Assembly (NCBI RefSeq): GCF_014205165.1
Contig: NZ_JACHMZ010000001.1
Span: forward strand, 3,308,501-3,372,500
DNA from: Micromonospora carbonacea
GTDB lineage: Bacteria; Actinomycetota; Actinomycetes; Mycobacteriales; Micromonosporaceae
Length of the DNA stretch: 64,000 nucleotides
Reading direction: 5' to 3'
Below, in pieces: positions 30,148-35,489 of this stretch. How positions within the stretch are numbered: the first letter of the stretch is position 1; every line of letters starts with the position of its first letter. Below the pieces are notes generated by a model. It was not told where the DNA came from, made no database searches, and saw nothing but the letters and a program-made list of their open reading frames with translations. The translations under genes and the position numbers were made by a program.

Positions 30148-33100
30148 TCAGACGCCCGAGGTGACCCGGTAGGCGTCGAACACCCCGTCGACCCTGCGGA
30201 CCGCGGCCAGCAGGTGCCCCAGGTGCAACGGGTCGGCCAACTCGAAGCTGAACCGGCTCACCGCCACCCGGTCGCGGGTGGTGGTGAGCGTCACGGAGAG
30301 GATGTCGACCCGCTCGTCGGAGAGCACCCGGCTGACGTCCGCCAGGAGCCGCTGCCGGTTGAGTGCCTCCACCTGGATGGCCACCAGGAACGCCGAGGCG
30401 GAGGTGAGCTTCCAGCTCACCTCGACCACCCGCTCGGCCTGGGCCCGCAGCTCCGTGGCCTTGGCGCAGTCGTCGCGGTGCACACTCACACCGTTGTTGC
30501 GGGTGACGAACCCGAAGACCGAGTCGGGCGGCACCGGCGTGCAGCAGCGGGCCAGCTTGATCCACACGTCGCCGGCGCCCCGCACCACCACGCCCGAGTC
30601 GTGGCCGTTCATCCGGACCCGGGGCGGCCGGGTGGCCACGGCCGTCTCGGACATGTCCTCCGCCGCGCCCTCCTCGCCCCCGTACGCGGCCATCAGCTTC
30701 TGCACCACCGACTGCGCGGAGACCCGGCTGTCGCCGACCGCCGCGTACAGCGACGCCACGTCGGCCAGGTGCAGGTCCCGCGCGACCGCCAGCAACGCCT
30801 CGGGGGTGAGCATCCGCTGCACGGGGACCCCCTGCCGGCGCATGGCCGCGACCAGCGCCTCCTTGCCGGCCTCGATCGCCTCCTCCCGGCCCTCGACGCT
30901 GAAGAACTGGCGGATCTTGGTCTGGGCGCGGGGGCTCTTGACGAAGCCCAGCCAGCCCCGTGACGGCCCCGCCGTGTCGGACCTCGACGTGAAGATCTCG
31001 ATCACGTCGCCGTTGGACAGCGTCGACTCCAGGGGCACCAGCTTGCCGTTGACCCGCGCCCCGATGCACTTGTGCCCGACCTCGGTGTGCACCGCGTACG
31101 CGAAGTCCACCGGCGTCGACCCCGTCGGCAACGGGATGACGTCACCCTTGGGGGTGAAGACGTACACCTCCTGGCTCGACAGGTCGAACCGCAACGCGTC
31201 GAGGAACTCGCTCGGATCCGCCGCCTCCCGCTGCCAGTCGAGCAGCAGGCGCAGCCACGTCATCTCGTCGACGTGCGCGGGGCCGCCCCCCGCCTGCGCG
31301 CCGTGCCGCCACCGGGCCATGATCCCGTACTCGGCGACGCGGTGCATCGCGTGGGTGCGGATCTGCACCTCCAGGTGCCGCCCCGTGGGCCCGACGACCG
31401 TCGTGTGCAGCGACTGGTACATGTTGGACTTGGGCAGCGCGACGTAGTCCTTGATCCGGCCCGGCACCGGCGGCCAGTTGGCGTGCACCACGCCCAGGGC
31501 CGCGTAGCAGTCGCGCACCGTGTCGACCAGGATCCGCACCCCAGCCAGGTCGTAGACCTCAGCGAAGTCGCGGCCCTGCACGATCATCTTCTGGTAGATC
31601 GCATACATGTGCCTCGGCTGGCCCGTCGCCTCCGCCCGGATCCTGGCGGCCCTCAGGTCCGCGTCCACCTTGACGGTGACCTGGCGCAGCAGCGCCTCCC
31701 GCCGGGGCCGGCGCGCTTCCACCAGGCGGGCGATCTCCTCGTACCGCTTGGGGAACAGCGTGCTGAACGCGAGGTCCTCCAGCTCCCACTTGATCGTGTT
31801 CATGCCGAGCCGCTGCGCCAGGGGCGCGAGGATCTCCAGCGTCTCGGTCGCCTTCTGCTCCTGCTTGGGCCGGGGCAGGAAGGACAGGGTGCGCATGTTG
31901 TGCAGCCGGTCGGCCAGCTTGATCACCAGGACCCGCGGGTCCTTCGCCATCGCCACGACCATCTTGCGGATCGACTCCGCCTCGGCGACGTCGCCGAACG
32001 TGACCCGGTCGAGCTTGGTCACCCCGTCGACGAGCGCCGCCACCTCGTCGCCGAACTCGACCCGAAGCTGGTGCAGGGGGTACGCGGCGTCCTCGACCGT
32101 GTCGCCGAGCAGCCCCGCGACCAGGGTCGTGGTGTCCATGCCCAGTTCGGCCAGGATGGTGGCCACCGAGAGCGGGTGGGTGATGTAGGGGTCGCCGGAC
32201 TTGCGGTACTGGCCGGAGTGCCACCACGACGCGGTGTCGAACGCGCGCTGCAACAGCAGGACGTCGGCGTCGGGATGGCTCCGCCGGTGGGCGGCCACCA
32301 CCGGTTCGAGCGCCTCGCTGACCTGGGGGGTGTCGCCGCCCAGGAGGCCGTCGATGCCCATCCGGCGGGCCAGCCGCCGCACCGACGAGACACGGTGCGG
32401 CTCCGCGCCGCCGGCCCGCGTCGGACCGGGCGCGGCCGCGTCGGGGACGAGGTCACCGGGCGGGGGCGCTGCCTCGACGCCGTCGAGGTGGGCGAGCGCG
32501 GTGACGGCCACGCGGCGCTGCAACGGCGCCAGGCCCGCCTGTCGCGCGAGGCGGACAAGCAGCTCGCGGCCCCGCCCATCGCCCGCGCGGGCGAGCGCGT
32601 CGGCGGCCCAGACGCGCTGCCCGCCCTCGAACGCCTCGTCCTGGCCGACCACGGCGAGCAGGGCGGGACCGTCGACGTCGACGAGACGCGCCACCTGTTC
32701 CATGATCCATTTGTCGCCGCCGTCGCCGACCGTCCCGTCCGGGTCGACGGGGCGGGGCGGCGTCGGGTGCGGCGCGAGGTCGGCCAGCGTGCGCAGGGCG
32801 CCGACCCGCAGCCGGCGGTCGATCCTCGGGTCGGTCACGACGGCCCGGGCCAGGTCGGCTCCGGCGGGCCGGCTGAGGTGGACGCAGGTGTCGACGGCCA
32901 CCTGCCGGTCGTCGACGGATACGCGCTCGTCGTGGGCGATGGCACGCAGCGCCCGGACGGCGTTGTCCACGACCTCCACGGTCAGGTCGTGGCCGTCGTC
33001 GACGAGCGCGCCGACGAACAGGGCCGCGCCGAGGCCGCCGGTGGCCGTCATGGCCCGCAGGGCCGAGGCGACGGCGTCGGGCTGCGGCCACGCCGCGACC

Positions 33101-35166: not shown

Positions 35167-35489
35167 TCGAGGCCCACCTTGACGCCGGACTTGGCCGAGG
35201 CCTTGCCCAGGATCGCCACGAACTTGCCAGACTCGACGGCGAACTCGCAGCTGAACTCGACCGACAGCCGGGTCACGTCCGCCCCGCGCAGCGAGTCGGC
35301 GACCTTGCCGGCGAAGGCCGCCAGCCCGGCGAGCGCCTCGTCCAGGCTGGCCGGACGGCCGGCGACCTCGGCCTCGTCGCTGGACGCCCCCGCCCGCAGG
35401 ACCCCGGTGGACAGGTAGACGACATGCCCGTCGACCCGCAACGGCACCAGGCTCTCCGGCCCGTCCACGGCAGCGCCGTCCTCGTTCAC
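35145..35489 (-). CDS. Trypco1-type protein (trypsin-co-occurring domain 1)
   Basis: The 114-residue protein has an N-terminal VPLRVDGHVVYLSTGVLR strand pair, a helical middle (LDEALAGLAAFAGKVADSL) and a beta-rich end. That end (VTRLSVEFSCEFAVESGKF then KSGVKVGLEWEK) is the pattern of the small CU044_2847/Trypco1 domain. These are encoded beside trypsin-NACHT/STAND conflict proteins in actinobacteria and are presumed sensors, adaptors or activity regulators of the protease module. GTG 35489 is preceded by GAGGTGG. Its end overlaps the fusion gene by 22 bp, indicating a two-gene operon. Confidence 0.78.
   Translation of the reverse strand: MNEDGAAVDGPESLVPLRVDGHVVYLSTGVLRAGASSDEAEVAGRPASLDEALAGLAAFAGKVADSLRGADVTRLSVEFSCEFAVESGKFVAILGKASAKSGVKVGLEWEKPTT

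Follow-up and report, generated by a model that had tools for sequence, protein, structure and literature searches.

A minus-strand operon of Micromonospora carbonacea pairs a Trypco1-like gene with one 1,672-codon frame in which an HtrA-like protease, a NACHT NTPase and HEAT-like repeats are followed by HD-synthetase-TGS-RIS-ACT, i.e. an NLR-type module carrying a whole Rel enzyme. The hydrolase site of this Rel part has been damaged, which fits alarmone synthesis without hydrolysis, and the chances are about even that the operon is an accessory NLR-type switch whose output is (p)ppGpp made without counter-hydrolysis. With confidence a little short of even, a wider pattern is also proposed: Rel enzymes may have been wired repeatedly into NLR-type receptors (Trypco1-HtrA-NACHT-Rel in Micromonospora and relatives, NB-ARC-TPR-Rel in Nocardia), the hydrolase being disabled in each and the Trypco1-HtrA-NACHT-Rel type being resupplied with synthetase sequence by conversion from the housekeeping rel, with the growth-arrest messenger as immune output. 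If true, NLR-type innate immunity would be tied directly to the stringent response in one protein, hydrolase loss would have a built-in reason, and continuing conversion with the housekeeping gene would be what preserves a housekeeping enzyme domain inside an immune receptor. No description of a NACHT-Rel fusion was found in the open-licence papers searched.

The operon lies in a 64,000-nucleotide stretch of the M. carbonacea genome, the whole of which is called the window here. Its Trypco1 gene (35145..35489, minus strand; 114 aa, GTG start) overlaps by 22 bp the fusion gene (P0003; 30148..35166, minus strand; 1672 aa, GTG start), the two-gene layout that a sequence-only reading had described. 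The same reading had placed in one chain a protease triad (His54, Asp95 and Ser172, in a trypsin/HtrA-like domain of residues 39-187, 34606..35052), NACHT Walker motifs (Walker A Lys322 and Walker B DGLDE 401-405, in residues 313-474, 33745..34230), a helical region (residues about 560-895, 32482..33489) and an entire RSH, and all of these were confirmed. The helical region is NLR/HEAT-like, appearing as helices in the AlphaFold model and as HEAT_2 (PF13646) in relatives such as P0025 and P0027. The Rel part consists of an HD hydrolase domain (residues 975-1122, 31801..32244; Pfam HD_4), an alarmone synthetase domain (residues 1184-1288, 31303..31617; Pfam RelA_SpoT, E 4.4e-35), a TGS domain (residues 1334-1393, 30988..31167), an AH/RIS region (residues 1413-1564, 30475..30930) and an ACT domain (residues 1591-1667, 30166..30396), all on the minus strand; the TGS and ACT domains of bifunctional Rel[HS] are thus both present.

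Domain matches and the predicted fold support the identification of a STAND/NACHT protein fused to a full-length Rel. The N-terminal half is predicted to resemble NLRC4/NLRP3/NOD2 plus DegP (AlphaFold model, fold matches), giving it an NLR-type NACHT-helical fold, and Lys322, Asp401 and Asp404 are invariant across 39 relatives, while the Pfam NACHT match falls below cut-off. PADLOC returned two matches, both weak, RT-Protease_XI over the protease and PDC-S33 over the synthetase. The antiphage bNACHT/EruA proteins share the NACHT Walker motifs and the predicted NLR fold, but the EruA match is weak (38.1 bits, far under the cut-off of 1000) and the fusion adds a C-terminal full-length Rel and an N-terminal HtrA-like protease. 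One such protein, bNACHT25, is said to be a bacterial NACHT/NLR-related antiphage protein. Between the HEAT-like region and the Rel part runs a linker (residues about 896-956, 32299..32481, minus strand) with a pLDDT below 50 at residues 898-903 and 906-929, where the model ends, and it may hold a protease site. At this junction the Plantactinospora endophytica locus (L014) is divided: a stop codon between HEAT and HD (8709-8746) parts protease-NACHT-HEAT from Rel, and the Rel frame opens directly behind it. The split may be a working two-protein form or decay.

The sequence-only reading had called the Rel complete, which stands insofar as HD, synthetase, TGS, RIS and ACT are all present, but damage to the HD had been overlooked. 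Codon 1021 (32104..32106, minus strand) is GGC (Gly) where canonical rel has CAC (His), so that the motif reads LLGDTVED against LLHDTIED in the canonical Rel of the same genome. By role and numbering, we take the seven hydrolase residues to be Rel_Seq H53, H77, D78, E81, D82, D144 and N148; setting the HD histidine to 80 as a numbering check puts positions 241 and 344 on the expected glycine and histidine. In the window fusion the H77 equivalent is Gly and the remaining six are retained, leaving it without the intact hydrolase of a bifunctional Rel[HS], and its HD is predicted to be inactive.

Damage of this kind is general among the fusions. Of 34 fusions (31 database proteins matching the NACHT part, HD and synthetase, of which 23 also match the protease and one is the window protein, plus three loci including the split L014), 4 keep all seven residues, as against 34 of 37 long Rels (the genome's own Rel and 36 hand-picked from the 120 matches listed); among the three exceptions is a TPR-Rel protein, P0082. 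A second alignment with no hand-picking gave 4/29 domain-covering fusions versus 201/203 other RSH proteins. The lesions vary, with GD, SG, HR, HG, HA or gaps in place of HD and Cys, Gln, Ala, Arg or Ser in place of the later hydrolase Asp. To define conserved positions, 32 of the 37 Rels were used, leaving out the deviating P0076, P0077, P0081, P0082 and P0122. Hydrolase residues were changed in 98 of 238 cells over the 34 fusions, compared with 262 of 1632 at other conserved HD positions (column-permutation p 1e-4, relatedness ignored), and in 40/77 against 110/528 for the 11 closest fusions (p 0.002, relatedness again ignored). Furthermore, each of the 10 genomes examined combines a fusion with altered hydrolase residues and a canonical Rel that retains all seven, two of the ten fusions being near-copies. 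The fusions that keep all seven are P0088, P0102, P0105 and P0110, and only P0105 also has the synthetase core. For another RSH, one paper reports that the synthetase domain performs poorly without the hydrolase domain (PMC6491832), and this may be why a dead HD has been kept in the fusions.

The D/K/Y/E core of the synthetase is intact in 17 of 34 fusions (33 of 37 Rels) and in 10 of the 11 closest, where changed catalytic-set cells number 18/209 for the synthetase versus 40/77 for the hydrolase. The full set of 19 is kept in six of the 34, namely P0019, P0021, P0023, P0024 and L008, all among the 11 closest, and the more distant P0129. Over all 34 fusions, catalytic residues of the synthetase are changed more often (147/646) than its other conserved positions (230/1700). 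The window copy retains the D, K, Y and E of the core, but its ATP site carries R241Q, K243R and S247A, and Arg occupies the position that aligns with Mtb His344; ATCC 39149 (L007) shares only the first of these four changes. The alarmone output proposed by the sequence-only reading would fit the loss of hydrolase residues, and the changes at three ATP-site residues and at the His344-aligned residue speak against a simple form of it. Ten of 69 conserved synthetase positions differ in the window copy, including three of the 19 catalytic-set residues and the His344-aligned position, compared with 2/55 in the HD, and the two domains alike have a pN/pS of about 0.6 relative to own Rel, so that the window synthetase is no more constrained than the predicted-dead HD. 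Because of the ATP-site and His344-aligned changes, the claim that the hydrolase is lost and the synthetase kept is stronger for the family than for the window copy. The protease, NACHT, HD and synthetase are under purifying selection, with dN/dS of 0.25-0.31 between the window and ATCC 39149; the protease-NACHT linker and TGS have values of 0.33-0.39, and HEAT, RIS and ACT values of 0.46-0.51. The canonical Rel of the genome has both sets of active-site residues. A second RSH in the same genome (G000:C1:1498711-1498968), presumably RshA-like, is a frame of 623 aa whose HD motif is intact and whose synthetase positions are degenerate.

Comparison with host rel genes points to exchange of the synthetase part with the host's own rel by gene conversion in most lineages compared. 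Each fusion of eight lineages was set against the canonical rel of its own genome and of the seven others, M. chalcea (a near-copy of M. tulbaghiae) and Amycolatopsis standing outside the eight. In 7 of 8 lineages the synonymous difference of the synthetase segment to own rel is 0.106-0.216, below that to every other genome's rel; the exception is Micromonospora sp. MP36, whose synthetase lies at 0.504 from own rel, yet its RIS part at 0.098. In the window copy, pS of the TGS to own rel is 0.037. The HD differs by 0.547-0.713 in 6 of 8 lineages, against 0.168-0.388 between canonical rels (28 pairs), and the drop falls near residues 1100-1220, being more gradual in MP36. In the window and ATCC 39149 the HD is also near own rel (0.215 and 0.192); even so, the codon at the histidine position reads GGC or AGC. 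We infer that selection keeps the HD out of conversion, although divergence alone may halt recombination there. No conversion is visible in Amycolatopsis, whose HD, synthetase and TGS each lie 0.51-0.63 away from own rel. In the Rel tree the fusions are scattered among canonical Rels (11 changes), the window Rel part grouping with Micromonosporaceae Rel, while in the NACHT tree they are nearly grouped (4 changes versus 28.9 when shuffled; starred branches force only 1). Gene conversion would explain this pair of trees, although several independent fusion events may be an alternative source of the pattern.

A second receptor type is found in Nocardia tenerifensis, where P0078 combines NB-ARC, TPR repeats and a full Rel, with no protease domain seen. 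In P0078 and the TPR-Rel proteins P0237 and P0082 the Glu and Asp of HDxxED are both changed (3/3), and two of the three keep the synthetase core. All three also keep four presumed metal ligands, which makes hydrolase loss less sure here. The annotated start of P0078 lies just before Walker A and that of P0237 inside the repeats, so their true N-termini are uncertain.

In the proposed switch, the HEAT-like region and/or Trypco1 would sense an invader or damage, upon which the NACHT NTPase would oligomerise. The Rel part would then be released, either by that oligomerisation or by a protease cut in the low-confidence HEAT-Rel linker, and the hydrolase-dead synthetase would raise alarmone and cause growth arrest. 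Counted against this are P0105, which keeps the core of both active sites, Amycolatopsis and MP36, which show no conversion of the synthetase segment, the lack of a defence island in the 10 flanking proteins scanned, the sensing role that the C-terminus has in usual STAND proteins, and the 98 relatives that, among the matches listed, match the NACHT part without any Rel.

The last of these also favours a different arrangement, in which the protease would act as effector and the Rel part as an integrated decoy, a bait for attack on, or altered states of, host Rel, ribosome or tRNA, kept Rel-like by conversion. The C-terminus is the sensor of usual STAND proteins, and the Rel part sits at that position. 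TGS, the tRNA/ribosome-facing part of Rel, is the most conserved part of the window copy (pN 0.006), the conversion donor is the same genome's rel, and many distant fusions, and in part the window copy too, have a degraded set of synthetase residues. However, the closest fusions combine selective damage to the HD with a largely intact synthetase set, P0079 keeps NACHT-HEAT-Rel and has no protease match, and the Nocardia NB-ARC-TPR-Rel protein shows no protease domain either, although its annotated start may be truncated. We regard a decoy as rather unlikely. An alarmone effector and a Rel decoy are the two leading models, and they make opposite, easily tested predictions.

How the operon is distributed bears on whether it belongs to defence at all. 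Among 121 Micromonospora genomes (own included), a protease-NACHT search gave 7 near full-length matches (E 1e-117 or better), all open frames of 1,663-1,783 aa, while 41 other genomes had weak partial matches (best E 3.2e-24); the Rel part itself was observed in the window, L091-L094, L007 and L013, the last two of which, from frame length and place, seem to correspond to the G109 and G053 matches. Each of the 12 nearest relatives (L007-L018) has a Trypco1-like ORF directly upstream, whether or not a Rel part is present; of three further loci, L020 also has one, and none was found in L019 and L021, which are more distant. Loci of different lineages cease to resemble one another beyond the operon, except that ATCC 39149 shares flanks with the window and M. 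tulbaghiae with M. chalcea; L093 and the M. tulbaghiae locus L008 have 99.9% identity. Around the left-flank gene, 2 of 10 operon-lacking loci (L108-L117) show an operon-free site: G016 and G076 continue within 0.7-1.0 kb into a match of window 37425 onwards, without the operon and the next ORF, the other eight being short loci with the right flank outside them. The search across relatives proposed with the original observation thus reveals a patchy gene at differing chromosomal sites, and the fusion operon is an accessory gene.

This distribution, with its operon-free sites in two relatives, speaks against a regulated Rel paralogue outside defence, whose NACHT-protease half would sense a metabolic or developmental cue and add a synthetase-only input to the stringent response. 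Such a role would suit the retained TGS, RIS and ACT and the presence of another Rel with both active-site residue sets, and a scan of the 10 flanking proteins gave no conspicuous known defence gene. Trypco1 and NACHT are, however, parts of conflict systems in Kaur 2020 (PMC7159879), and we consider a paralogue of this kind decidedly unlikely. That the fusion is decaying and non-functional, or stems from faulty annotation or assembly, is most improbable: the halves are split in L014, pN/pS to own Rel is near 0.6 in both catalytic domains of the window copy and dN/dS rises in HEAT, RIS and ACT, but the frame is open in many genomes, which also speaks against the earlier concern over a joining or sequencing error, and the protease, NACHT, HD and synthetase are under purifying selection. 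The separate canonical Rel likewise rules out the earlier concern that this might be the only Rel of the genome.

Small alarmone synthetases of the toxSAS class are short, single-domain and HD-free, and the fusion is none of these. Like CapRel/toxSAS (PMC9712102), it has an RSH-type synthetase governed by a fused regulatory part, but CapRel modifies tRNA and the fusion places a long Rel that includes HD, TGS and ACT behind an NLR module. Changed hydrolase residues beside a retained synthetase domain recall the monofunctional long RSH RelA[hS] described in Atkinson 2011 (PMC3153485); unlike RelA[hS], the Rel part here groups with Micromonosporaceae Rel and sits behind an NLR module. Two elements are already described in Kaur 2020 (PMC7159879), Trypco1 being named there beside trypsin domains and RelA as an occasional effector domain in vWA proteins of conflict systems. 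The VMAP/MoxR-vWA ternary systems of that paper (PMC7159879) resemble the operon in a Trypco1 gene adjoining a trypsin-like domain, but the fusion unites protease, NACHT and whole Rel in one chain, VMAP was not found in the neighbouring ORFs scanned, and a Pfam scan of 20 neighbouring ORFs found no MoxR or vWA.

Other features of the window and its relatives were also recorded. Beside the left-flank gene lies an insertion element (28657-29557; DDE_Tnp_1 transposase 28671-29363, minus strand), across whose site at least nine related loci run straight, and three further sites in the genome carry about 60 bp of its right end. A segment of about 9.3 kb (38543-47814) holding an amylase with CBM20 domains, MFS transporters and a penicillin amidase-family gene is absent from ATCC 39149. 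Three loci, from Amycolatopsis and two Micromonospora genomes (L063, L064 and L065), contain frames of 1407-2371 aa with a distant RelA_SpoT match of 33-39 bits, the visible part of which, we assume, resembles polymorphic-toxin proteins. A second Trypco1 gene elsewhere in the M. carbonacea genome (G000:C1:2633212-2633502) gives a stronger match than the Trypco1 of the operon.
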